Shown here: one piece after another, positions 1 to 20,459 of the stretch
Layout: each line of letters starts with the position of its first letter
Position numbering within the stretch: the first letter of the stretch is position 1
IMG/VR virus record: IMGVR_UViG_3300046318_000275
Span: 1 to 20,459 of that record
Length of the DNA stretch: 20,459 nucleotides
From: a virus
Strand: one strand, 5' to 3'
Made by a program: the position numbers and the translations under genes
The notes under the pieces: model-generated
What the model was told of the DNA's origin: nothing
Databases searched by the model: none
What the model saw: only the letters and a program-made list of their open reading frames with translations

Positions 1-1668
1 ACACAATGTATTGTACTTGAGCATAAAAGACAATGGATTGCTAAAATATTCTCCAAAGGGTGGAATTATTCTGTTGGGTACCATACTGTAAAAATTGTCA
101 AACCTAAATTAATATGGAAAAAAAATCCAGATTTAGATCAATTGATGACTTTTGAAAATACTCCTATTGGAGTTTTTGAACCAGAGCCATGGGATAAAAA
201 TTATAAGTTTATATGGTATATCGATCCTAAAGTTAATCCATTAGCAGATAAAGTGTGGGCGATTAGTTGTTATTACGAAGGTTTAGACCACAAAGGTACC
301 AAGGACATGGGATTTGTCAGACCTAAATTAATCTGGGAAAAGAATCCAGATTTAGATCAATCAATGACTTTTGAAAATACTCCTATTGGGATTTTTGAAC
401 CAGGCCCTTGGGACCGCTATAGGTTTATATGGTATATAGATCCTAAAGTTAATCCACTGGCAAATAAAGTGTGGGCAATTAGTTGCTATTACGAAGGATT
501 CGCCGATAAAGACATTAAGGATATGGGATTTGTCAGACCTAAATTAATCTGGGAAAAGAATCCAGAGTTAGATCAATTGATGACTTTTGAAAATACTCCT
601 ATTGGAGTGTTTGAGCCAGGCCCATGGGATCGATATAGGTTCATATGGTATATCGATCCTAAAGTTAATCCACTGGCAAATAAAGTATGGGCAATTAGTT
701 GCTATTACGAAGGACTTGCTGATAAAGGTATCAAGGATATGGGATTTGTAATGCCAGAAGTTGACATTACTATTAAGGAAGACATACCTAGGATGAATAT
801 TGACATCGATCAATGTTATCCACCATTCTGGCAAATATCAAACGAGTGTGCATTTGAATTAACATCAGATCAACATACATTAGAAGACAAGGTATGGGTA
901 TTTAAATTTACTCCTAGGTATAGAGAACCTATTGGGTGGGCATGGATAGGTAAAATTGCTCCATTAATTACCCCAATAATGGATGTTATTTTTATCAGTT
1001 ACAATGAAAAAAATGCTGAGGAAAATTGGAAAAGAGTATTAGAAAAAGCGCCTCATGCAAAGCGAGTAAACGGAGTTAGGGGAATATTTAATGCTCACAA
1101 AGCTGCTGCTGAATTAGCAACAACAGATATGTTCTATGTAGTAGATGGAGATGCATTTCTTGTTGACGATTGGGTGTTTGATTACAATCCTATTTTATTA
1201 GATAGGAATCAAACGCATGTCTGGTATTCTATTAATCCAACAAATGGACTAGTCTACGGGTACGGCGGAGTTAAACTTTTTCCAAGAATATTATTCAATA
1301 CTACTAAAGAGTGGACAACATTAGATTTAACTACTACTATAGGATCTGAATTTAGAATAGTTGATAAAGTTAGTAATATTGCAGCATTTGATACAGATGC
1401 ATATTCAACATGGCGCAGTGCATTTAGAGAATGTGTTAAGTTATATCATAATATATCCAAAGACAAACTAGATCCGGTGCACAGAGAACGAATGAACGCA
1501 TGGCTGTCAAGCAGTCAAGGAGATTATTGTAAATGGGCAAGATTAGGTGCAATACACGGTGTTCGTTATTGCAAACGTAACCTCAATGAGTATAATATAT
1601 TGCTGAAGATTAATGATTCTCAGTGGCTAGAAGAAGAATTTAAAAGAATAACAAAGGAAATATTTTAA
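1..1668 (+). CDS. Repeat-containing glycosyltransferase-like protein (5' partial)
   Basis: The frame is open from base 1, so the gene begins outside the window; the first in-window Met (145) is not its start. About 555 codons are visible. From about base 103 to 753 it carries three near-identical repeats of 73, 72 and 72 residues (PKLIW..NPDLDQ..MTFENTPIG..FEP.PWD ... KVWAISCYYEG ... KDMGFV). After a degenerate linker (KVWVFKF echoes KVWAISC), the C-terminal part from about base 970 reads as a nucleotide-sugar-type glycosyltransferase domain: DVIFISYNE, HAKRVNGVRGI, AHKAAAELATTDMFYVVDGDA, with the DGD triad (bases 1144-1152) as candidate DxD metal/sugar-nucleotide site. Known: such domains occur in large phages. 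Inferred: modification of phage or host surface glycans, with the repeats as recognition modules. The nucleotidyltransferase-cupin gene follows after one base. Sugar donor and acceptor cannot be told; the glycosyltransferase call is by motif only. Confidence 0.7.
   Translation, partial: TQCIVLEHKRQWIAKIFSKGWNYSVGYHTVKIVKPKLIWKKNPDLDQLMTFENTPIGVFEPEPWDKNYKFIWYIDPKVNPLADKVWAISCYYEGLDHKGTKDMGFVRPKLIWEKNPDLDQSMTFENTPIGIFEPGPWDRYRFIWYIDPKVNPLANKVWAISCYYEGFADKDIKDMGFVRPKLIWEKNPELDQLMTFENTPIGVFEPGPWDRYRFIWYIDPKVNPLANKVWAISCYYEGLADKGIKDMGFVMPEVDITIKEDIPRMNIDIDQCYPPFWQISNECAFELTSDQHTLEDKVWVFKFTPRYREPIGWAWIGKIAPLITPIMDVIFISYNEKNAEENWKRVLEKAPHAKRVNGVRGIFNAHKAAAELATTDMFYVVDGDAFLVDDWVFDYNPILLDRNQTHVWYSINPTNGLVYGYGGVKLFPRILFNTTKEWTTLDLTTTIGSEFRIVDKVSNIAAFDTDAYSTWRSAFRECVKLYHNISKDKLDPVHRERMNAWLSSSQGDYCKWARLGAIHGVRYCKRNLNEYNILLKINDSQWLEEEFKRITKEIF
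103..753 (+). repeat. Three in-frame tandem repeats, about 217 bp each
   Basis: Units start at CCT codons at 103, 322 and 538, giving spacings of 219 and 216 bp (73 and 72 codons). Units 2 and 3 are the most alike and share long identical DNA runs; unit 1 differs by an extra codon (DKNYKF versus DRYRF). The high nucleotide identity points to recent expansion or homogenisation. Confidence 0.9.
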
Positions 1669-1669
1669 T

Positions 1670-2416
1670 ATGAAAATAGTAATTTGCTCAGGAGGGTTTG
1701 ATCCGATTCACAGCGGACACATTAAGTTTTTTAAAGAGGCTAAACTGCTAGGAGATTATTTGATAGTTGGCCTTAACTCGGATGCATGGCTCACTCGCAA
1801 AAAAGGACGACCTTTTATGCCATGGAAAGAACGGCTAGCTGTGGTATCTAATATGTCTGTAGTTGACGAAGTTATTGCGTTTGACGATTCGGATGGATCT
1901 GCTATTGATGCGATTAAACATGTGTTAGGGTCCACAGCATCTGACGCTAAAGTTATTTTTGCCAACGGAGGAGATAGAACAAAAGAGAACATTCCCGAGA
2001 TGTCTATCCAGGATCCTAGATTAACCTTTGTATTTGGTGTAGGCGGCGAAGATAAGAAGAACTCTAGTAGTTGGATCTTAGAAGAATGGAAAAGTCCCAA
2101 GACAGAAAGACCTTGGGGATATTATAGAGTGCTGTACGACATTCCTATGTGTAAGGTCAAAGAGCTGGTAGTTAATCCGGGCAAGAAACTTAGTATGCAA
2201 CAACATCAGCATAGAAGCGAGTATTGGTTTGTATCAGAAGGCACTGCCACAGTTTACTGGGATCACGGACATTCAGAAATACAACAACACGCCAGCGAAA
2301 TTATAAATCAACAGGAGTGGCATCAGTTAGCCAATGAAACAGACCGTCCGCTTAAAGTAGTGGAAATACAGCATGGCCCTGCATGTGAAGAAAATGATAT
2401 TATCCGAAAAGAGTGA
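1670..2416 (+). CDS. Nucleotidyltransferase-cupin fusion (HldE/GCT-like + ManC-type cupin)
   Basis: A 248-aa two-domain protein. Residues 1 to about 140 form a nucleotidyltransferase fold: SGGFDPIHSGHIKF contains the HxGH signature, followed by LGDYLIVGLNSDAW and KGRPFMPWKERL, closest in pattern to the cytidylyl/adenylyltransferase half of heptose or glycerol-phosphate nucleotidyltransferases. Residues from about 153 to the end match the cupin of type II mannose-6-phosphate isomerase/GDP-mannose pyrophosphorylase: ERPWGYYRVL, VKELVVNPGKKLSMQQHQHR, SEYWFVSEGTA, EWHQL, VEIQHG and a terminal CEENDIIRKE. QHQHR and the later H supply plausible metal ligands. ATG sits one base after the upstream stop, with AAAGGA at 1653-1658 as ribosome site. 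Inferred role: making or isomerising an activated sugar for the neighbouring glycosyltransferase. The substrate is unknown. Confidence 0.8.
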   Translation: MKIVICSGGFDPIHSGHIKFFKEAKLLGDYLIVGLNSDAWLTRKKGRPFMPWKERLAVVSNMSVVDEVIAFDDSDGSAIDAIKHVLGSTASDAKVIFANGGDRTKENIPEMSIQDPRLTFVFGVGGEDKKNSSSWILEEWKSPKTERPWGYYRVLYDIPMCKVKELVVNPGKKLSMQQHQHRSEYWFVSEGTATVYWDHGHSEIQQHASEIINQQEWHQLANETDRPLKVVEIQHGPACEENDIIRKE

Positions 2417-3996: not shown

Positions 3997-4020
3997 AATT
4001 TTAACCTGCTTGTAAATTTT

Positions 4021-4028
4021 GTTAAATA
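4021..4028 (+). promoter_or_regulatory. GTTAAATA late-promoter-like box 5 nt before ATG 4034
   Basis: The box ends at 4028 and ATG begins at 4034, the same 5-nt spacing as three other genes here. No Shine-Dalgarno is seen, which supports ATG 4034 over the TTG at 4019 that lies upstream of the box. Confidence 0.4.
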
Positions 4029-4033
4029 TTTCC

Positions 4034-4390
4034 ATGATAAACATTTCACAAAATGCAAAAGATAAAATAGTATCATTGCTAGAAGAAGAAGCCAATCCAA
4101 AACTTAAAATGAGAACGTTTGTACAAGGTGGCGGGTGTTCAGGCATGAGCTATGGATTTACGTTTGACGAAGAACAAAATGAAGATGATTTTGTTATTGA
4201 CGTTGGCAGTTATACTGTAGTAGTTGATTCTATGAGTATGCAATACTTAAACAATGCGACTATTGATTACAAAGAAGATTTAATGGGCGCATCTTTTAGT
4301 ATTGATAATCCAAACGCCGAAACTAGCTGTGGGTGCGGCAGCAGCTTTTCTGTAAGAGATGATTTCTTTGATGACCACTTTTTTGATTGA
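4034..4390 (+). CDS. A-type Fe-S cluster carrier (IscA/ErpA/HesB family)
   Basis: A 118-aa protein starting [19 protein letters not shown]. It follows the Fe-S_biosyn family: [18 protein letters not shown] with Cys35, [15 protein letters not shown] and [19 protein letters not shown] with Cys99 and Cys101. These three cysteines are the cluster ligands in IscA/ErpA. Known: A-type carriers pass [2Fe-2S]/[4Fe-4S] clusters to apo-enzymes; HesB/IscA-like genes are recurring auxiliary genes in marine myoviruses. The C-terminus is extended by an acidic FFDDHFFD tail. An upstream TTG (4019) gives five more residues but splits the TAAATA box. The stop codon overlaps the -35 box of the ligase promoter. 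The client enzyme is unknown. Confidence 0.9.
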
Positions 4391-5996: not shown

Positions 5997-6215
5997 ATGG
6001 CAAAAGAAGATGTGATTAGCCTTGACGGCAAGATCGAAGAAGTGTTACCCAACGCAATGTTTAGGGTAAAATTAGATCAAGGATCATCGGTGTTAGGGCA
6101 TATCAGCGGTAAGATGCGTCAAAACCGTATTCAAATATTAGCAGGTGATAAAGTCTGTGTAGAAATGAGCCCGTATGATCTAACCAAGTGCAGGATCGTA
6201 TATCGCACAAAATGA
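5997..6215 (+). CDS. infA: Translation initiation factor IF-1
   Basis: A 72-aa protein, the usual bacterial length. It aligns without gaps to IF-1: [61 protein letters not shown], i.e. a single OB/S1-like domain. Known: IF-1 binds the 30S A site with IF-2 and IF-3 and shapes start-codon selection. The usual Gly in SKGRI/TKGRI is Cys here, and the segment around LDQGSSVLG departs from the usual GHVV pattern. GGAG in the end of the preceding gene serves as ribosome site. It is the last gene of the ligase operon, before a strong terminator. Carriage by a phage suggests takeover of initiation or support for leaderless or weak-SD phage mRNAs; that is inference. Confidence 0.92.
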
Positions 6216-8069: not shown

Positions 8070-9404
8070 ATGGCAGTTGATCGTTATCAAAGTAGCACAA
8101 ACTATGAACATCCGCAAGAGAGCAATCTCCTAAACCTTCATAAGGCCATGGAGTACAACGCCCTTGGCCAACCTGTGCTTCGTACTACACTTAAAGTAGG
8201 ACAAACAGATGCCTTTGGTCGTATCCGTATGTCTAGTCCTTTTACACTAGGTGACTATAAACACCTATACGGGTTAGATTCCAACTTCATTGATTATGCA
8301 GTCAACGGCGGCACTGTTACATTTCAGTCAAACAAGGCATGTGCTAGATTAGCTACTACTAGCAATTCCGCTAGCCGTATAGTACACCAAACTAAATTCT
8401 ATCATCATTACATGCCAGGTAAGAGTCAGCAGATTCTTTCCAGTTTTAACTTTTATGCTGCTGTACCAAATGTGACTAAACGCACTGGCTACTTTGATGA
8501 CAACAATGGTATCTACTTTGAACAAGCAGGGGATGGCACACTGTCTTGGGTCATACGCAGCTATACCTCCGGAGCACCATTAGAAGTGCGCAAGACACAA
8601 GCAGAGTGGAATATAGATACTTGCAACGGCCAGGGCGGCAGCTTGTTCAACATAGATATTACTAAGACACAGTTAACATTTATCGAGTTTCAGTGGCTAG
8701 GAGTCGGTTCGGTTACAGTAGGATTTGTTCACGATGGTGCTTATATACCTTGCCATATATTCCATCACTCAAATGATTTAACCACAGTCTATATGAGCAA
8801 TCCTAACTTGCCTGTACGCTGTGAAATCGTAAACACGGGTGCTACTACTGGAGCATACTTTGATCAAATATGTAGTACTGTGGCCAGTGAAGGCGGATAT
8901 GTTGAAGCAGGTATCGACTGGGGCGTAACTAGTCCCACATTACGAGTTGTTACAGCAGGTGCAACATTGCCTATTATGGCCATTAGATTAAAAACTGCTT
9001 ATAAAACATATGCTAATCGTATGATTGTGCGTATGGGCAACCTTAACATGTTTAGTGATGGCGAAAGTATTAAATGGAGATTATTAAAACTTCCGGACAG
9101 TACTTATCTTAATGATACTACCTGGACAGATGTTGACGACGACAGTGGAGTACAATACTGTGTAGACATGAACACTTGGACTGATGGTGATGAACTAGAC
9201 AATGGGTGGGTAGGAGCTAGTACCCAAGGTAGTCAAAAGGCAGGCGGAGCACCCGGTTCTAATTTGCCAAGTACTGCTAAAAAGAATTTCATTGTGCAAA
9301 ACTACGACAGCACCAGCAGTGAAATCTATATGATAGTAGCAACTAACCTTGGAAGTCAAAGTACTAATGTTGGTGTTGGCATTCAATGGCGAGAAGTTTA
9401 TTAA
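8070..9404 (+). CDS. Virion structural protein, beta-rich
   Basis: A 444-aa protein starting MAVDRYQSSTNYEHPQESNLLNLHKAMEYN, then GQPVLRTTLKVGQTDAFGRIRMSSPFTLGDYKH. This N-terminal block (GRIRMSxPxTLxDxKxxY) is typical of a structural protein common in marine T4-like phages. The middle is lectin-like or jelly-roll-like beta sequence (GTLSWVIRSYTSG, FIEFQWLGVGSVTVGFVHDG, HIFHHSN), and the end is NYDSTSSEIYMIVATNLGSQSTNVGVGIQWREVY. No enzymatic motif was found. It follows the 72-aa gene by one base, with no good ribosome site, so coupling is likely. Location in the particle (tail, baseplate or capsid decoration) is unknown. Confidence 0.8.
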   Translation: MAVDRYQSSTNYEHPQESNLLNLHKAMEYNALGQPVLRTTLKVGQTDAFGRIRMSSPFTLGDYKHLYGLDSNFIDYAVNGGTVTFQSNKACARLATTSNSASRIVHQTKFYHHYMPGKSQQILSSFNFYAAVPNVTKRTGYFDDNNGIYFEQAGDGTLSWVIRSYTSGAPLEVRKTQAEWNIDTCNGQGGSLFNIDITKTQLTFIEFQWLGVGSVTVGFVHDGAYIPCHIFHHSNDLTTVYMSNPNLPVRCEIVNTGATTGAYFDQICSTVASEGGYVEAGIDWGVTSPTLRVVTAGATLPIMAIRLKTAYKTYANRMIVRMGNLNMFSDGESIKWRLLKLPDSTYLNDTTWTDVDDDSGVQYCVDMNTWTDGDELDNGWVGASTQGSQKAGGAPGSNLPSTAKKNFIVQNYDSTSSEIYMIVATNLGSQSTNVGVGIQWREVY

Positions 9405-9413
9405 AGGATACAA

Positions 9414-9854
9414 ATGAAAAAATTATTGTTAACACTATTAATTGCTGTTGCAGCATTACCTGCACTGGCACAAAAACAAAAAGAGGGTGTAACATATGAT
9501 GCTGTAATTACCCGAGTAATTGATGGTGATACCGTTGCATTTCAAGCACCATTTTTACCAGCACCATTAAAGAAAGAACTAAGCATTAGAGTGTTTGGTG
9601 TAGATACTCCGGAAAAAGGATTTAGGGCGCAATGTCCTAGCGAAGCACAACGTGGTGAAGCAGCAAGTGCATATACCAAACAGCTAGTAGCAAACAGTCA
9701 AAAACGCCAGATCGTGTTAATGGATTGGGATAAGTATGGTGGTAGAGTGCTAGGCGATGTCATACTCGATGGACAAAGTTTGCGAGCACTTTTAATACAA
9801 AACGGCTTTGCAAGAGAATACTACGGAGAAGCGAAGACTTCTTGGTGTAACTAA
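9414..9854 (+). CDS. Exported SNase-type thermonuclease
   Basis: A 146-aa protein. Residues 1-19 are a signal peptide (MKKLLLTLLIAVAALPALA, AxA cleavage). The SNase fold follows: VIDGDT with Asp37, IRVFGVDTPEKG with Arg59, Asp64, Thr65 and Glu67, and YGGRVLGDV with Arg111; these match the calcium-binding and catalytic residues of staphylococcal nuclease (Asp21, Arg35, Asp40, Thr41, Glu43, Arg87). The core is complete and should be active on DNA/RNA. C74 and C145 could form a disulphide after export. AAAGGA at 9403-9408 is the ribosome site. Inferred: periplasmic or released nuclease acting on foreign or host nucleic acid, possibly nutrient recovery or exclusion of rival DNA. Confidence 0.93.
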   Translation: MKKLLLTLLIAVAALPALAQKQKEGVTYDAVITRVIDGDTVAFQAPFLPAPLKKELSIRVFGVDTPEKGFRAQCPSEAQRGEAASAYTKQLVANSQKRQIVLMDWDKYGGRVLGDVILDGQSLRALLIQNGFAREYYGEAKTSWCN

Positions 9855-9996
9855 CCCTGCCTTAGGGACCGTTGTCGTCACGGAGTGAGCTTGCTCACAC
9901 AGGCGTCCGCGCAATTGAACTGCACCGCGTAGTGTGCCGGGAGATAAAGTAACTCCCACTTTAAGGCATATACTGCCTTATATTTTTTACATCTTT
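9855..9996 (+). ncRNA. GC-rich structured leader or sRNA before the desaturase
   Basis: A 142-nt gap, visibly richer in G and C than its surroundings, with successive possible helices: CCGT/ACGG (9869-9872, 9880-9883), GTGAGC/GCTCAC (9885-9890, 9893-9898), GCAC/GTGC (9922-9925, 9934-9937), GGGAG/CTCCC (9939-9943, 9953-9957), and TAAGGCA/TGCCTTA (9962-9968, 9974-9980) followed by a T-run. TGCCTTA also occurs at 9858-9864, right after the nuclease stop, and can pair with the same TAAGGCA, closing the whole domain. The two pairings exclude each other. No tRNA fold or riboswitch family was recognised. It may be a cis-regulatory switch, or a small RNA with a terminator. Confidence 0.5.
9962..9988 (+). 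terminator. Candidate attenuator terminator
   Basis: TAAGGCA (9962-9968), loop TATAC, TGCCTTA (9974-9980), then TATTTTTT. The 7-bp stem is of moderate strength. It lies 8 nt before the desaturase ATG, with no ribosome site in between, so a formed hairpin should shut the gene off. Confidence 0.5.
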
Positions 9997-10707
9997 ATGA
10001 CCGAATTAATTTACACACTAATACTTACACATATCACCATTGTTTGCGTTACTTTATTTTTACATCGTGGACAAGCACACAGGGGAATTACATTCCATCC
10101 TGCGCTAGAACATTTCATGCGATTTTGGTTATGGCTTACTACAGGCATGGTTACTAAACAATGGGTAGCAATACACAGAAAACATCATAGCGCAACAGAT
10201 CAAGCGCCCGATCCTCATAGTCCCCACATTTATGGAATTTGGCATGTTTTATTTAAAGGAGCTGCTTTGTATCATGCAGCCAGTAAAAATAAAACATTGG
10301 TTAAGAATTATGGAGTAGGAACACCAGACGATTGGATAGAGCAGAATCTATATACCAAGCATAGTAGATGGGGTATTATGTTAATGCTCATTATTAATTT
10401 AATACTATTCAGCTGGGTAGGATTCCTAATATGGGCCATTCAAATGTTATGGATTCCGTTTTGGGCAGCAGGTGTGGTCAACGGAATTGGTCACTGGTGG
10501 GGCTACAGAAATACCGATACCAAGGAAGAAAGTACCAATATCGTGCCTTGGGGATTTATAATCGGCGGTGAAGAATTACATAACAATCATCACGCAGATC
10601 CTGCTAATCCTAAATTAAGTAGACGTTGGTTCGAGTTCGACGCAGGGTGGGTGTGGTTTACGTTGTTTAGATATATTGGATTATCTAAACTAAATAGTAA
10701 ACTATGA
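9997..10707 (+). CDS. Membrane fatty-acid (acyl-CoA/delta-9-type) desaturase
   Basis: A 236-aa integral membrane di-iron enzyme. His boxes are HRGQAHR (His23, His28), HRKHH (His60, 63, 64) and HNNHH (His195, 198, 199), plus NGIGH (Asn162, His166). Hydrophobic segments are at about 2-22, 41-52 and 126-165. GTPDDWIEQNLYTKHS, MLWIPFWAAGVVNGIGHWWGYRN and NIVPWGFIIGGEELHNNHH match proteobacterial acyl desaturases. It introduces a cis double bond into acyl chains using O2 and electrons from ferredoxin or similar. ATG 9997 is preferred for homology, but has no Shine-Dalgarno; an in-frame GTG (9934) would add 21 residues across the hairpins. The leader suggests regulated expression. Likely effect: altered fluidity of the host membrane during infection. 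Its stop overlaps the next ATG (ATGA). Confidence 0.95.
   Translation: MTELIYTLILTHITIVCVTLFLHRGQAHRGITFHPALEHFMRFWLWLTTGMVTKQWVAIHRKHHSATDQAPDPHSPHIYGIWHVLFKGAALYHAASKNKTLVKNYGVGTPDDWIEQNLYTKHSRWGIMLMLIINLILFSWVGFLIWAIQMLWIPFWAAGVVNGIGHWWGYRNTDTKEESTNIVPWGFIIGGEELHNNHHADPANPKLSRRWFEFDAGWVWFTLFRYIGLSKLNSKL
10689..10696 (+). promoter_or_regulatory. ACTAAATA late-promoter-like box 7 nt before ATG 10704
   Basis: CTAAATAG lies inside the last codons of the desaturase. The distance to ATGAGAG is 7 nt, slightly longer than the four 5-nt cases. Confidence 0.4.
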
Positions 10708-14212: not shown

Positions 14213-17200
14213 ATGTCCAATAAAATTATTCTTAAGAAATCATCCGTTGCGGGTAAAATTCCAACAACTAGTGATCTTACCTACGGTGAAGTTGCATTAA
14301 ATTATTCAGATGGTAAGTTATATTACAAAACTGTCGGCAATGCTATAGAATATCTAGCCAATGGCGGTACATTTACAAATGCCCTTACAATCACAGATAC
14401 TACACAATCAACGTCAACTGTTACAGGCGCATTAGTAGTCACCGGCGGAGTCGGCGTTGGAAAGAATCTTGTAGTAGGTAATGATCTATTTGTTGGCGCT
14501 GGTGCAGCTGAGACTAGCTTTGTTAATCCCACAATTATTGCAAAAGATTCTGGGGCAACTTATATTCAAGCGGCTCTTATTAATTCAAATGCTACAGGAT
14601 CTGCTGACTGGACAGCCTATGGTGAAACGGGCACTGACTCACAAGCCTGGGCGAGTTTTGGATTCACCGGAAGCGGATTTAATGACAATAATTATAATAT
14701 TACCGGTGACAACGATGGGTATCTCTTTGTACAAGGTACTACAGCAACCGGCTCAACTGGAAATCTAGTCTTAGCAACAGGCGAGAAGGGAGAATTAAAA
14801 GATATAGTATTTGCCACAGGCGGTTTTTCTACATCCAACGAAAAGATGAGATTAATCGATAATACAGGGCAATTATATTTGCAAACAGATACAGATGCGA
14901 CTAGCAACACAGATGGCGCTCTTAGAGTACTCGGTGGAGTATCTGTTGGAAAATCACTAGTAGTAAATGATAACTTGTACATCGGCCCAGAATCGTGGAC
15001 ATTAGGATTAACTAACCCAACATTAGTAGCTGCCGACCTTGGCTCTACCTACATCCAAGCTGCACTAAAAAATAATGGAGCAACTGGGTCTGCAGATTGG
15101 ACCGCTTATGCAGACAATGGAACAGAATCTAACAGTTGGGTAGATATGGGGGTAACTGGAAGTGAATTCAGTGACCCGAATTACACTATAACCGGAATTA
15201 ATGATGGTTACTTATTTGCATTAGGTTCTGCGTCAACAGGAACCGGAAATCTGGTATTAGCAACTGGCAATTTAGGTTCGGGCAAAGATATAGTATTTGC
15301 CACAGGCGGGTTTGATGCCGCTAATGAGAAAGTAAGATTAATTGATAGCACAGGCCAGTTATATGTAAAAACTACAACTACTTCTGTGAGTACTACTACC
15401 GGTGCACTAAGAGTAGCCGGCGGCGTAGGTATTGGCGAAAATTTAAATGTAGGCGGTAATGTTAATAATGTAAAAATTAATGCACCGTCTGCAATATCTA
15501 CATTAACATTAGGTAATAATATTACAGTTAGTATTCCTAGGAGCTTGACATTTCCTGGTGTAGACGGAACATCGACTTATTTGTTAAGCACCGACGGTGC
15601 AGGAATACTAAGTTGGGCAGAGCCTGCACAAGGTGCACAAGGTATCCAAGGAACTCAGGGCATACAAGGAATTACCGGTTCGCAAGGTACCCAGGGCGTG
15701 CAAGGCCGTCAAGGCACTCAGGGTACACAAGGAACACAAGGTATCCAGGGCATACAAGGATCAAATGCTGATGCAACAGCATTAGTTACTGCGCACGAAG
15801 CAGCATCTGATCCTCATCCTCAATACGCTACTATTCCTGAAGTTGCCGATGTAACTGGGGACATTCATGGAGTTGTGACTAGAACTGCATCGGTATTGTC
15901 TTTTAATGAAGGGACTAGAGAATTCAGTATTGCACCCGCATCATCGTCATGGACTTATTATTATCATGGTAATCTACATACCATATCGTCTACTTTATCA
16001 ATAACTTTAGCCAATACATCAGGTGCAAGATTTATTAGAATTGATCCCAATACAGATACATTAATCGAAGGCGGATCTGTACCAGACTTTGCAAATGATA
16101 CAATTGTAGCTTATATCTACTATAATGCTGCAACTGGTAAAGGAATTATACTAGGCGATGAAAGGCACGGATATAAAAGAGATACCACCTGGCATTCAAA
16201 TCAACATTTAAATGTCGGTACTGTATGGAGATCCGGTGGTTCTCTAACATATACTTTAGACAATGACACTAGTGTGAGTATCGGTGTCGGTACTCCTCTT
16301 AATATCGCAGATGAAGATTTATTGCATACTATTATAAATTCAGCATCTCCTGCCGCAAACTACGAACAGACACTGTCGACTTCTGCATCTCTCGAAGTGT
16401 TATACCTTGATGGAAATGGATATTACGCAAATACTACACCAAGTACTACTCCATGGGTTGCTGGAACCTCTCTTGCAAGATATAACTCAGTTTCCGGTGG
16501 GTTAGGTTCATTAGTTGATGCAAACGAAGGCGAATATATTACATATTGGTTAATTGCTACTAATGACATTCGACGCCCGGTGAAACTAGTAATGGGCAGA
16601 GCATCTCATGCTACTATAGATGCTGCATACGCAGAGGAGTTCCAGGAATATGGGTTGTCTTTTGCAGAACAAGTATTCATGTATCAGATTGTAATTAAAA
16701 CAAGTTCGTCTTATACAAATAACACACCTAAAGTTGTAATTTCTGCAATTCGTAAGGTACTAAGCAAAGTTGCATCATCTGCTTCTACAGTATCTGCATC
16801 GTCGCACAATAGCCTAACAGGAAGAGATTCTGCCGATACCCATCCAATATCTGCTATTACAAATTTACAAAGTTCTCTAGATGGTAAGCAGGAAACATTG
16901 GTATCTGGTACCAATATAAAAACAGTTGCAGGTACATCTTTATTAGGATCAGGAGATATTCCTAGTATACAAGGAACACAAGGTGTTCAAGGACGTCAAG
17001 GCGTTCAAGGTGTACAGGGAATAGAAGGCCCTACTCCAGAATCTATAACATATACTGTGCAAAGTATCTCGTTAACAGATGGAGTATATGTTTCTGGCGG
17101 ACTATCGGATATTCAAACATATAATGATGGAAATCAATATATTATTACTGATGGTACCGCAGCAGGCCCAGCATGGATTATCACTGTTGGATTTACAGGA

Positions 17201-20200
17201 GTAACGTCATTCAACCAGATTAGTTTGAATGTTTTGTATACTCAAAATTCCGGACATACAGTTTATGTACAATTATATAATAATAATACTGTATCTTGGG
17301 ATAATATTTCTCAGTATAACGGTACAACTGGATATGCTCAATTTCAGTTAGGTATTATCGACGGAGCTCCTTATATTAATGCTGGAGCAGTAAGTGTTAG
17401 ATTATATCATAATAATACAGGTAGTGCATTACATCAAACCAATCTTGATTATATTGCACTCGTTGATTCTATAGCCGGAGGAATGGGCCCTAGGGGATTA
17501 CAAGGCACTCAAGGCGTAACTGGTACACAGGGCACTGATGGAACACAAGGAGTACAAGGCACTAACGGAACACAAGGCACGCAAGGAGTTCAAGGAACTC
17601 AAGGAGTTCAGGGGGTAACTGGATCACAAGGAACACAAGGAGTTCAAGGAACTCAAGGAGTTCAGGGGGTAACTGGATCACAAGGAACACAAGGAGTTCA
17701 AGGAACACAAGGCGTTATTGGAGTGCAAGGCACCACTGGTACTGCTACTCAAGGAACACAAGGCGTAACTGGTACTGCTACTCAAGGCGTTCAAGGTGTA
17801 ATTGGAGTACAAGGTGTAACTGGTACTGCTACACAAGGAACTCAGGGAGTAACTGGTACTGCTACTCAGGGAACTCAGGGTGTAACTGGTACTGCTACTC
17901 AGGGAACTCAGGGTGTAACTGGTACTGCTACACAAGGAACTCAAGGAGTAATTGGGGTTCAAGGAACACAAGGCGTTCAAGGACGCCAAGGCGTTCAAGG
18001 TGTAATTGGAGTACAGGGCGTAACTGGTACTGCTACTCAAGGAACTCAGGGCGTCCAAGGAACCAATGGAACTCAGGGTGTAACTGGTACACAAGGTACA
18101 CAAGGTACATTTACAGGAACTACAACTTCAACTGTTTTTATTGACAATGCAACATCGGCAACGTCTACAGCTACCGGCGCACTGACCGTTTCGGGCGGTG
18201 TTGGTATTGGCAAAGATTTATATGTTGGCGGAACAATATATGGTTCATTAACAGGAATTGCTACTACAGCAACGGATGCTGTGAAGTTACAAACCGCTAG
18301 AACAATCAATGGTGTTTCCTTCAATGGAACCAGTGACATCACAGTAAGCGCAACTACTACAAATGCACTTACTATAGGAACTGGTCTAAGTGGAACATCT
18401 TTTAACGGCTCTAGTCCAGTTACTATTGCTATAGATTCAAGCGTAGTGACACTAACTGGTGCACAAACTCTCACAAATAAAACGTTAGAAAATCCATTAG
18501 TCGAAGGTTCATTAAGCGTATATAATACTGGTACTGCATTTACACCGTTTGATTTATCAATAGCACGGATAATATCTAATGTTAACGAGTACTCAGAAGT
18601 TTATCATCAAAATATAAACGCAGGATCTGATTCATCCGCTGACTTTGTGGTCTACAATGATCTAGGTGACGGGACATCGTATTTCTTAGATATGGGTATT
18701 AACAGCAGCAACTATAGCTCTGTTGATTATCCGATATTTAGTGCTAATTCAGCATACCTATATGCAGGTGGTGGCCCAGGCCAGGGGTCTGAATTATTCA
18801 TAGGAACTGGTTCAACTGGTAGCGATGTTACTCTGTTTACTGGCGGAACTACTGTAGCAAATAAGAGACTGGTTATTAAGTCAGAAACTGGTAATGTATT
18901 AATTGGATCAACTACTGATGATGTTACACATAAATTACAAGTCACAGGAACTACCAAGTTTAATGGTGATATAAATGTCGCCGGTGCAGCATATGCAACT
19001 GCGGACATCACAGGAGCATTGCAACTTGTAACCAAACAATATGTAGATAATGCTACCAGTGCCGGCTTACACATTCACACTCCTGTTAAAGTCGAGGCTG
19101 CTGGGAACTTAAATGCAACCTATACTACAGGTGGGTCTGCTGCTACAATTACAGCTATTACAGCAACATCATACTTGACCATTACTGGTCACGGTATCAC
19201 TGAGCTGCACGATATGTTTGTGTTCAATAGTACAGCAAATGGAATTGTAAGTGGAACACCTTACTATGTTAGCGAGATTGTCGATGTAAACACTTTGAGA
19301 TTTTCATTAACCCACGCTGGTGCTACCTATACATCATTTACTAATGGAACAGGCCTGTCGATTGCAGGAAGGTCTAATGCAGGTGTAGGTGCTACCTTAA
19401 CAAACGCAGGAACACAAACAAATCTAGTCGTTGACAGTGTTACGTTATCGGTTAATGATCGTGTGTTAGTGTATGAGCAAACTAATACTTTTGAAAACGG
19501 TATATACGTTGTTACCAACACCGGAACTGTTTCTACTAATTGGATTTTAACAAGATCTAACGATGCTAATAAGTTTGGTCCTACTGATCCAACACAACTT
19601 GGCGGTGGTGATTATTTCTATGTTACCGAAGGAGCTACAGGAGCAGGTGAATCATATGTGTGTACTAATTCTGAACCAATTATATATGGTACCAGTGCAA
19701 TTAATTTTACACTGTTTAGTGCAGCCCCTGCGTATACAGGAATAACACCTATTAATGTAAGTGGGCAAAATATCAGTCTAACAGGAACTGTAGATGCTAC
19801 ACACGGCGGAACCGGAGTAAGTACAGTAACTACTGGTGACTTATTATATGGATCTGCTGCCAACACCTGGAGTAAATTGCCGTTAGGTGTTGCATACAAG
19901 AGTATAGTAGTTAACGCTAGTGGAACACAGTTAGAATGGAATGCAGTAGCATTGAATCAACCTGCGGCTGTTAGTGGAGAATTAGGCATAGTCCATGGCG
20001 GAACTGGTGCATCTACTAGTGCTACTGCTAGGACTAACTTAGGATTAGCAATAGGTACCGATATTCCTAGTGTATCAGGGTCTGGTGCAACTGGCACTTG
20101 GAACATAAACATTAATGGAACTTCTGCAAATATTGCAGGCGGATCTCAAAATAAAATATTATATCAAACAGGAACCAATGCAACTAATTTCATTATAGCA

Positions 20201-20459
20201 CCTACTACAGCAAGTACATATCTTGCATGGAGTGGCAGCGTATTTGAATGGAGTAGTGTAGCAGGGATACCAGGGACCCAGGGAACACAAGGTGTTCAAG
20301 GAGTAATTGGGGTTCAAGGAACACAAGGCGTTCAAGGAACTCAGGGTGTAACTGGTACTGCTACTCAGGGCGTTCAGGGTGTAACTGGTACTGCTACTCA
20401 AGGCGTTCAAGGTGTAATTGGAGTACAAGGTGTAACTGGTACTGCTACACAAGGAACTC
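14213..20459 (+). CDS. Giant tail fibre protein, 3' partial (over 2,080 codons)
   Basis: The frame is open from ATG 14213 to the window end with no stop. The N-terminus MSNKIILKKSSVAGKIPTTS, DLTYGEVALNYSDGKLYYKT is the fibre attachment module. Next are two tandem 163-residue copies (YIQAAL..ATGSADWTAY ... TGxNDGYLF ... GNLVLATG ... DIVFATGGF ... EKxRLID), each ended by a GALRV.GGV bead. Four Gly-X-Y blocks follow (15632, 16973, 17486, 20264), mostly GTQ/GVQ. Between blocks 1 and 2 lies a long unique domain (REFSIAPASSSWTYYYHGNLHTI ... SSHNSLTGRDSADTHPISAI), typical of fibre proteins. After block 3 come bead motifs, GAQTLTNKTLENP, TKQYVDNATSAGLHIHTPVKVEA and NGIYVVTNTG. A weak AGGGTG site precedes the ATG. 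Receptor binding is the likely role; the tip lies outside the window. Confidence 0.93.
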   Translation, partial: MSNKIILKKSSVAGKIPTTSDLTYGEVALNYSDGKLYYKTVGNAIEYLANGGTFTNALTITDTTQSTSTVTGALVVTGGVGVGKNLVVGNDLFVGAGAAETSFVNPTIIAKDSGATYIQAALINSNATGSADWTAYGETGTDSQAWASFGFTGSGFNDNNYNITGDNDGYLFVQGTTATGSTGNLVLATGEKGELKDIVFATGGFSTSNEKMRLIDNTGQLYLQTDTDATSNTDGALRVLGGVSVGKSLVVNDNLYIGPESWTLGLTNPTLVAADLGSTYIQAALKNNGATGSADWTAYADNGTESNSWVDMGVTGSEFSDPNYTITGINDGYLFALGSASTGTGNLVLATGNLGSGKDIVFATGGFDAANEKVRLIDSTGQLYVKTTTTSVSTTTGALRVAGGVGIGENLNVGGNVNNVKINAPSAISTLTLGNNITVSIPRSLTFPGVDGTSTYLLSTDGAGILSWAEPAQGAQGIQGTQGIQGITGSQGTQGVQGRQGTQGTQGTQGIQGIQGSNADATALVTAHEAASDPHPQYATIPEVADVTGDIHGVVTRTASVLSFNEGTREFSIAPASSSWTYYYHGNLHTISSTLSITLANTSGARFIRIDPNTDTLIEGGSVPDFANDTIVAYIYYNAATGKGIILGDERHGYKRDTTWHSNQHLNVGTVWRSGGSLTYTLDNDTSVSIGVGTPLNIADEDLLHTIINSASPAANYEQTLSTSASLEVLYLDGNGYYANTTPSTTPWVAGTSLARYNSVSGGLGSLVDANEGEYITYWLIATNDIRRPVKLVMGRASHATIDAAYAEEFQEYGLSFAEQVFMYQIVIKTSSSYTNNTPKVVISAIRKVLSKVASSASTVSASSHNSLTGRDSADTHPISAITNLQSSLDGKQETLVSGTNIKTVAGTSLLGSGDIPSIQGTQGVQGRQGVQGVQGIEGPTPESITYTVQSISLTDGVYVSGGLSDIQTYNDGNQYIITDGTAAGPAWIITVGFTGVTSFNQISLNVLYTQNSGHTVYVQLYNNNTVSWDNISQYNGTTGYAQFQLGIIDGAPYINAGAVSVRLYHNNTGSALHQTNLDYIALVDSIAGGMGPRGLQGTQGVTGTQGTDGTQGVQGTNGTQGTQGVQGTQGVQGVTGSQGTQGVQGTQGVQGVTGSQGTQGVQGTQGVIGVQGTTGTATQGTQGVTGTATQGVQGVIGVQGVTGTATQGTQGVTGTATQGTQGVTGTATQGTQGVTGTATQGTQGVIGVQGTQGVQGRQGVQGVIGVQGVTGTATQGTQGVQGTNGTQGVTGTQGTQGTFTGTTTSTVFIDNATSATSTATGALTVSGGVGIGKDLYVGGTIYGSLTGIATTATDAVKLQTARTINGVSFNGTSDITVSATTTNALTIGTGLSGTSFNGSSPVTIAIDSSVVTLTGAQTLTNKTLENPLVEGSLSVYNTGTAFTPFDLSIARIISNVNEYSEVYHQNINAGSDSSADFVVYNDLGDGTSYFLDMGINSSNYSSVDYPIFSANSAYLYAGGGPGQGSELFIGTGSTGSDVTLFTGGTTVANKRLVIKSETGNVLIGSTTDDVTHKLQVTGTTKFNGDINVAGAAYATADITGALQLVTKQYVDNATSAGLHIHTPVKVEAAGNLNATYTTGGSAATITAITATSYLTITGHGITELHDMFVFNSTANGIVSGTPYYVSEIVDVNTLRFSLTHAGATYTSFTNGTGLSIAGRSNAGVGATLTNAGTQTNLVVDSVTLSVNDRVLVYEQTNTFENGIYVVTNTGTVSTNWILTRSNDANKFGPTDPTQLGGGDYFYVTEGATGAGESYVCTNSEPIIYGTSAINFTLFSAAPAYTGITPINVSGQNISLTGTVDATHGGTGVSTVTTGDLLYGSAANTWSKLPLGVAYKSIVVNASGTQLEWNAVALNQPAAVSGELGIVHGGTGASTSATARTNLGLAIGTDIPSVSGSGATGTWNININGTSANIAGGSQNKILYQTGTNATNFIIAPTTASTYLAWSGSVFEWSSVAGIPGTQGTQGVQGVIGVQGTQGVQGTQGVTGTATQGVQGVTGTATQGVQGVIGVQGVTGTATQGT
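14529..15460 (+). repeat. Tandem 489-bp in-frame repeat in the giant fibre
   Basis: Matching points TATATTCAAG (14561) and TACATCCAAG (15050) give a 489-bp (163-codon) period. The copies are diverged at DNA level but plainly homologous in protein, each ending with a GGV bead motif. This module is widespread in marine phage fibres. Confidence 0.85.
15632..15760 (+). repeat. Collagen-like Gly-X-Gln block 1
   Basis: About 14 triplets, GAQGIQGTQGIQGITGSQGT and similar. Part of the giant fibre; probably a trimeric collagen-like rod. Confidence 0.9.
16973..17037 (+). repeat. Collagen-like Gly-X-Gln block 2
   Basis: Seven triplets, GTQGVQGRQGVQGVQGIEGP, between unique domains of the giant fibre. 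Confidence 0.9.
17486..18112 (+). repeat. Collagen-like Gly-X-Y block 3 with tandem DNA repeats
   Basis: About 70 triplets, GTQ, GVQ, GVT, GTA and TQG patterns, starting GPRGLQGTQGVTG. At DNA level it includes two tandem copies of a 54-bp unit (17585 and 17639) and a 33-bp unit (GTAACTGGTACTGCTACTCA plus GGGAACTCAGG) repeated around 17820-17940. Confidence 0.92.
17765..17843 (+). repeat. 79-bp exact direct repeat, copy 1
   Basis: Identical by eye to 20381-20459; the match runs to the window edge, so its true length may be greater. Offset 2,616 bp = 872 codons, in frame. Confidence 0.85.
20264..20459 (+). repeat. Collagen-like block 4 (continues past window)
   Basis: GIPGTQGTQGVQGVIGVQGT and on, open at the right edge. 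20381-20459 is the second copy of the 79-bp exact repeat; another stretch of about 43 bp near 20297 matches 17940 onward. Confidence 0.9.

Follow-up and report, generated by a model that had tools for sequence, protein, structure and literature searches.

Immediately downstream of a nuclease gene in a viral record of 20,459 bases (the window, meaning the whole stretch that was analysed), positions 9855-9957 hold what is virtually certain to be a member of a new phage family of conserved structured RNA. Selection acts on the RNA base pairs of this family, which we divide into types, the window's RNA belonging to type I. Our reading of the element as a whole, a structured noncoding phage RNA of about 100 nt that acts in trans and pairs with the host ribosome, is drawn from sequence comparison and is, in our estimate, only just short of probable.

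The RNA is abutted at its start by the stop codon of the nuclease gene, and the gene that follows it encodes a desaturase, with no Shine-Dalgarno sequence before its ATG at 9997 (Table 1). An earlier note on this DNA had drawn attention to the gap on account of three elements, TGCCTTA (9858-9864), TAAGGCA (9962-9968) and TGCCTTA (9974-9980), as well as the lack of a Shine-Dalgarno sequence and a raised GC content. All of these are present as described, the GC content of the region being 0.49-0.53 against 0.33-0.47 nearby. Copies 2 and 3 of the repeat pair as a hairpin of 7 bp with T9983-T9988 behind it, which in a pattern scan is the sole terminator-like site in 9300-10300. The conserved RNA terminates before it, at 9957. 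The alternative folds are nearly isoenergetic, with a minimum free energy of -38.3 kcal/mol for pairing of copy 1 with copy 2, versus a centroid of -37.6 for copy 2 with copy 3. The window sequence is not stabler than its shuffles in single-sequence folding (z of -0.63, and -1.10 in a second run), and folding of the region on its own was set aside as uninformative.

Known RNA families do not account for the region. There are no Rfam 15 matches in the window at gathering thresholds, and a search of 9700-10100 with E-values up to 10 returned an irrelevant snoRNA inside the desaturase gene and nothing else, known ribozymes included. No tRNA or tmRNA was found in the window by ARAGORN. With no match to an Rfam family, a tRNA, a tmRNA or an intron, these readings were ruled out, among them the ordinary tRNA or intron fragment that the earlier note had named as a refuting match. 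Elsewhere in the window, all on the plus strand, are a phage-encoded homologue of translation initiation factor IF-1 (5997-6215; PF01176, E 1e-26; PHROG unnamed), a protein that huge phages are known to carry (PMC7162821), an IscA/ErpA-like iron-sulphur cluster biosynthesis protein (4019-4390; PF01521), and a giant ORF with long collagen-like GTQGVQG repeats (14213-20458), open at the window end and probably a tail fibre.

Table 1. The phage RNA of the window, its parts and the flanking features.
Feature	Position	Strand	Remarks
Staphylococcal-nuclease homologue (upstream gene)	9414..9854	+	PF00565, E 3e-11
Type I phage RNA member	9855..9957 (aligned span 9852-9958)	+	Match to model R1 at 9852-9958, 78.4 bits, E 6e-16, with the window itself among the R1 training sequences
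Hairpin H1, conserved loop (A/G)CCUU(A), here GCCUU	9855..9867	+	Includes the first TGCCTTA
Hairpin H2, CCGU...ACGG	9869..9883	+	93.8% paired (alignment A1)
Optional hairpin GUGAGC-UU-GCUCAC	9885..9898	+	Insertion in A1, present in a subset of members
Junction AGGCGUCCG, nearly invariant	9901..9909	+	Doubled as search pattern
Pseudoknot, 9908-9911 (CGCG) with 9926-9929 (CGCG, H4 loop)	9908..9929	+	Columns 73-76/91-94, 96.8% paired
Hairpin H4, 9922-9925/9934-9937, loop in pseudoknot	9922..9937	+	100% paired; two-sided changes in 4 of 4 pairs
Hairpin H5, 9939-9943/9953-9957, loop AUAAAGUAA	9939..9957	+	100% paired; two-sided changes in 5 of 5 pairs
Terminator-like hairpin TAAGGCATATACTGCCTTA and T-run	9962..9988	+	Second and third repeat elements; outside the conserved RNA
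Fatty acid desaturase (downstream gene)	9997..10707	+	PF00487, E 3e-13

Among 80 viral loci retrieved for carrying a desaturase relative, clear homologues of the gap were seen just before the desaturase in one (L008) and just after it in another (L034). A pattern derived from the conserved parts, AGGCGTCCG...ATAAAGTAAC, matched at least 119 viral stretches. The 5' hairpin CC-ACCUU-AGG, which is independent of the search pattern, is found in all of the listed pattern matches except two chance matches and two truncated copies. From the pattern matches, 71 distinct type I homologues were aligned (alignment A1). The invariance of AGGCGUCCG and of the H5 loop, which also belonged to the search pattern, is therefore in part a product of construction; when the search made no demand for AGGCGTCCG, 61 of 73 distinct sequences still had it, the remainder being point variants or chance matches.

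The 20 proposed pairs of A1, including the pseudoknot, are 97.8% paired and show 226 two-sided changes, with a covariation of 0.510 compared to 0.154 for shuffled and at most 0.106 for slid alignments. H1, H4 and H5 were recovered independently by RNAalifold. H1 (columns 5-7/14-16) is 95.8% paired, and one of its pairs has 11 two-sided changes. For H2 the covariation evidence is weak, since its changes are mostly one-sided or its pairs invariant. The arms of the optional hairpin differ between members yet stay complementary (GGGGGC/GCCC and AACGAGC/GCUCGUU, for example). In the pseudoknot, pair 75/92 is AU in 28 sequences, CG in 23, UA in 15, GC in two, UG in two and GU in one, and is broken in none, and pair 76/91 has 24 changes from G-C to G-U.

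G-U combinations far outnumber A-C combinations in A1 (66 versus 7), and the plus strand is thus the RNA. This excess and the covarying pseudoknot stand against an element that works as DNA, such as a site of recombination, replication or packaging whose hairpins merely resemble those of an RNA. The single copy per record and a gene order that differs on both sides would suit such a site, which we nevertheless regard as extremely improbable.

The three repeats had been interpreted in the earlier note as a switch, in which the middle copy pairs either with the first or with the third. This does not survive comparison with the relatives: TGCCTTA is present in H1 in one of 50 distinct type I members, the window itself, and the other 49 lack it. 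A downstream complement of at least 7 nt to H1, within 60 nt, is found in two of 50 distinct relatives (the window included) and in 0.7% of shuffles. Copies 2 and 3 fall beyond the conserved RNA, and relatives do not have them; this applies also to L140 and L008, where the hairpin at 9962-9988 is absent even though both RNAs precede desaturases. The two alternative stems, for which the note had proposed covariation as a check, are not conserved in the relatives. The three-way TGCCTTA switch was accordingly ruled out. The match between H1 and the terminator arms is private to the window, and the structured region around the repeats is conserved. The note was thus right to see here a structured RNA outside the known riboswitch classes, as the covariation in A1 and the lack of an Rfam 15 match attest, and wrong on the switch.

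All three principal types (I, II and III) give one strong match per phage record, in records that extend to 345 kb for type I and to 356 kb overall. This single copy led us to rule out a dispersed repeat or mobile element. The type I pattern has nine matches in 84,980 GTDB bacterial and archaeal species genomes, all of them without the other elements; these are chance matches, and a host gene was ruled out. Among cultured phages (50,697 deposited records), neither the RNA types nor the desaturase has a genuine match, and no description of the RNA family was found in the open-licence literature. Judged from these searches, the family is restricted to viruses, namely uncultured tailed phages.

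Types II and III share the ACCUUAGG motif with type I and take its place in other phages. Type II, found at other desaturase loci, has the ACCUUAGG start and a different 3' part, and type III is a third form, first met in two records. The patterns for type II and for type III each matched at least 120 viral stretches, and no locus was found with two of the three types. The 3' architecture of type III is that of type I, with a pseudoknot between a loop and an upstream strand and a second pseudoknot that joins the H5 loop to the strand preceding H4; in type III one pair of the second pseudoknot is GC in 20 sequences, UA in 14 and broken in none. The 24 pairs of type III are 95.3% paired, with a covariation of 0.320 against 0.128 in the control. 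Three loci (L497, L499 and L534) are chimeric, with a type I-like 5' half (UGGCGUC) and a type II 3' half, indicating that the types form one family; the loop ACGCCA of the type II half could pair with UGGCGUC. A second, weaker RNA in several type I and type II records (type IV, model R2) consists of the 3' module and a terminator only, that is, the 3' module of types I and III standing alone. It was seen in L471-L482 (G001, G010, G012-G017, G032, G041 and G042), for example as CGGGCACAAGAUAAGGUGUCGCUGGAACCCGUAACCAGC followed by a terminator. A pattern search for type IV, which proved overly strict, gave one match. Neither type II nor type IV loci have a relevant Rfam match.

The neighbouring genes bear on whether the RNA serves the transcript in which it lies. 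In 49 of 49 type I loci and in 103 of 107 type II loci the gene before the RNA has the same orientation, often ending within 30 nt of it, as might be expected of a 3' UTR element. Such an element, whether a processing site, an exonuclease block or a self-cleaving RNA, would give the upstream mRNA its 3' end. However, genes within a phage block mostly share one orientation in any case, the upstream gene is opposite in 18 of 99 type III loci, a single copy per genome is unusual for 3' UTR elements, and no ribozyme was matched. We consider an element of this kind improbable.

On the downstream side, the gene is often Hsp20-like or of the 'MRAKEF' kind (the names Hsp20-like and phasin-like were read from the sequences by eye, not assigned by profiles). 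In type III it is co-oriented in 92 of 95 loci, 86 of these belonging to the clusters called Hsp20-like or phasin-like; a terminator-like hairpin and a Shine-Dalgarno sequence lie between the RNA and the gene, and TAAATA stands just upstream of the RNA in 36 of 102. Type III and one clade of type I thus keep a fixed order before Hsp20-like or phasin-like genes, and in the window, L140 and L008 the RNA lies directly before a desaturase. Such loci are what would be expected of a cis-acting leader, in which the downstream mRNA would use the RNA as its aptamer or sensor and the hairpin with its T-run as its expression platform, be it a riboswitch, an attenuator or a thermosensor for Hsp20, phasin or desaturase genes. 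The conserved structured domain evident from the covariation of A1 also recalls riboswitches, and aptamers are typically compact pseudoknots, as is this RNA. The leader reading is at odds with the single copy per genome, with the lack of a fixed downstream gene or pathway in type II and in type I outside the Hsp20/phasin clade, with downstream genes oriented against the RNA in 6 of 48 type I loci and in 16 of 111 type II loci, with L034, where the RNA follows the desaturase, and with the alternative stems of the window, which its relatives do not keep. Control of desaturation, as suggested in the earlier note, is by the same token not a general role of the RNA. We regard a cis-acting leader as unlikely, if less so than any other alternative considered here.

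Gene order at type I and type II loci varies on both sides of the RNA, whose location is not bound to one target gene; one copy per genome together with changing neighbours favours a trans role. In the Hsp20/phasin clade the RNA may have either a cis or a trans role. The other suggestion of the earlier note, a small RNA ended by a terminator, stays one live reading among several; a terminator-like site lies at 9962-9988.

Some further observations were made at these loci. At gene starts of type I and type II loci, TAAATA, which we take to be the T4-type late promoter core, peaks sharply 10-11 nt before the ATG; transcription would therefore start at the ATG and yield leaderless late mRNAs. At a distance of about 1 kb from its RNA, L008 carries a phage-borne tmRNA (1500-1924, minus strand; Rfam beta_tmRNA / tmRNA_permuted, ARAGORN tag DAEFALAA). 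A short motif, CGGGATGGGAAG, recurs upstream of the desaturase in L006, L044, L048, L073 and L077 and upstream of the RNA in L483 and L485; it stands before terminators or before the RNA, and is possibly a further conserved RNA element.

A candidate target, should the RNA act in trans, emerged from a comparison with rRNA that was post hoc, having been conceived after the sequences were seen. Conserved blocks of types II and III are antisense to the universal segment 1919-1937 of 23S rRNA (helix 69/71), a target that is near-identical across more than 140 genera. The motif ACCUUAGGACC is antisense to 23S 1921-1931, and ACCUUAGGACC(G) is found in 34 of 34 type III sequences. In type II, the loop CGGCUGCUGG is antisense to 16S 518-527 (the 530 loop), and a third loop present in many of these RNAs, UUCGCUACC, is antisense to 23S 1929-1937. 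Measured with dinucleotide shuffles against the rRNA positions that seven bacteria of four phyla share, the observed antisense statistic is reached by none of about 700 shuffles for each of IIa and IIb, and by 0.2% for type III; neither type II nor type III has an excess of sense matches to conserved rRNA. In an unbiased set of 120 distinct type II sequences, found without requiring the 530 motif, there are 3.27 antisense matches per RNA (of at least 8 nt, to universally conserved rRNA) compared to 0.44 sense matches and 0.38 in shuffles, and 309 of the 393 antisense matches fall at 23S 1900-1980 or 16S 505-540. The type II loop GGCUGCUG is kept while its closing stem changes, and the unbiased set likewise retains the loop GGCUGCU, with rare variants, on differing stems. 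The match to the 530 loop is broken in some type II relatives (GGCUUCUG in L487, L488 and L508), and the ACCUUAGG block of type III may instead pair internally with CUAAG.

For type I the complementarity is weak, its mean antisense statistic being reached by 8.6% of shuffles. Most members have the 8-nt ACCTTAGG, of which the window keeps 7 nt, CCUUAGG (9860-9866, in H1), antisense to 23S 1924-1930. As only these seven complementary bases remain, the rRNA mechanism for the window's RNA rests on homology. The weakness of type I could be accommodated if the RNA acted in trans on another partner, as a small RNA or RNA-protein scaffold for a phage protein, a phage mRNA or a host RNA; the complementarity to rRNA seen in types II and III would then be incidental or ancestral, and structure, copy number and distribution would hold without any pairing to rRNA. 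Against this, the enrichment in type II is antisense only and lies at two universal sites. We judge a different partner to be rather unlikely, slightly more so than a cis-acting leader. Pairing with rRNA is the best-supported mechanism, and we propose it at somewhat less than even confidence.

Under the rRNA-pairing model, transcription of the window's RNA would be either separate or joined to that of the nuclease gene, and the hairpin and T-run at 9962-9988 would terminate it. The H1 loop would bind 23S rRNA beside helix 69 and, in type II, the loop of a second hairpin would bind the 16S 530 loop, and the phage would thereby interfere with or redirect host translation. A tentative and broader proposal, a little less secure than the pairing itself, is that these virus-only RNAs are modular and dock on the ribosome through loops that pair with 23S helix 69/71 and, in one type, with the 16S 530 loop, so that phages control host translation; types I and III would be the fused form, the 3' module (H4, H5 and pseudoknots) being separate as type IV in several phages. 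Pairing at helix 69 can matter, since a peptide nucleic acid (PNA) directed against it can stop the growth of E. coli, according to the passage of PMC7038079 that cites Kulik et al. 2017.

Among known systems, the terminator-ended small RNAs of bacteria and phages are, like this RNA in the favoured reading, short, intergenic, structured and trans-acting, and a hairpin with a T-run follows the RNA in the window and in several other members. However, the family is conserved in sequence and structure far beyond typical small RNAs, types II and III are complementary to rRNA rather than to mRNA start sites, and no Rfam small RNA is matched. With riboswitches and attenuators it shares a compact pseudoknotted form and, in one clade, a position ahead of a gene, flanked by promoter-like TAAATA on one side and a terminator-like hairpin on the other, and it differs from them in its copy number, its variable or opposite downstream genes and its lack of conserved alternative stems in the window's relatives. 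The helix 69 PNAs, as described in that passage of PMC7038079, are also antisense to the helix 69 region, although they are synthetic oligomers, whereas the phage RNAs are encoded in genomes. Phage-encoded translation proteins (IF1, IF3, bS21 and S1) are products of viral genes and are thought to intercept host translation (PMC7162821, PMC6375957), and one of them, IF-1, has a homologue in the window itself; they are, however, proteins and not RNAs.

The family is by itself a new RNA class, abundant, single-copy and pseudoknotted, in hundreds of contigs of uncultured aquatic phages. If the rRNA pairing is true, it would be the first viral RNA known to us to target the decoding and subunit-bridge sites of the ribosome by antisense pairing.
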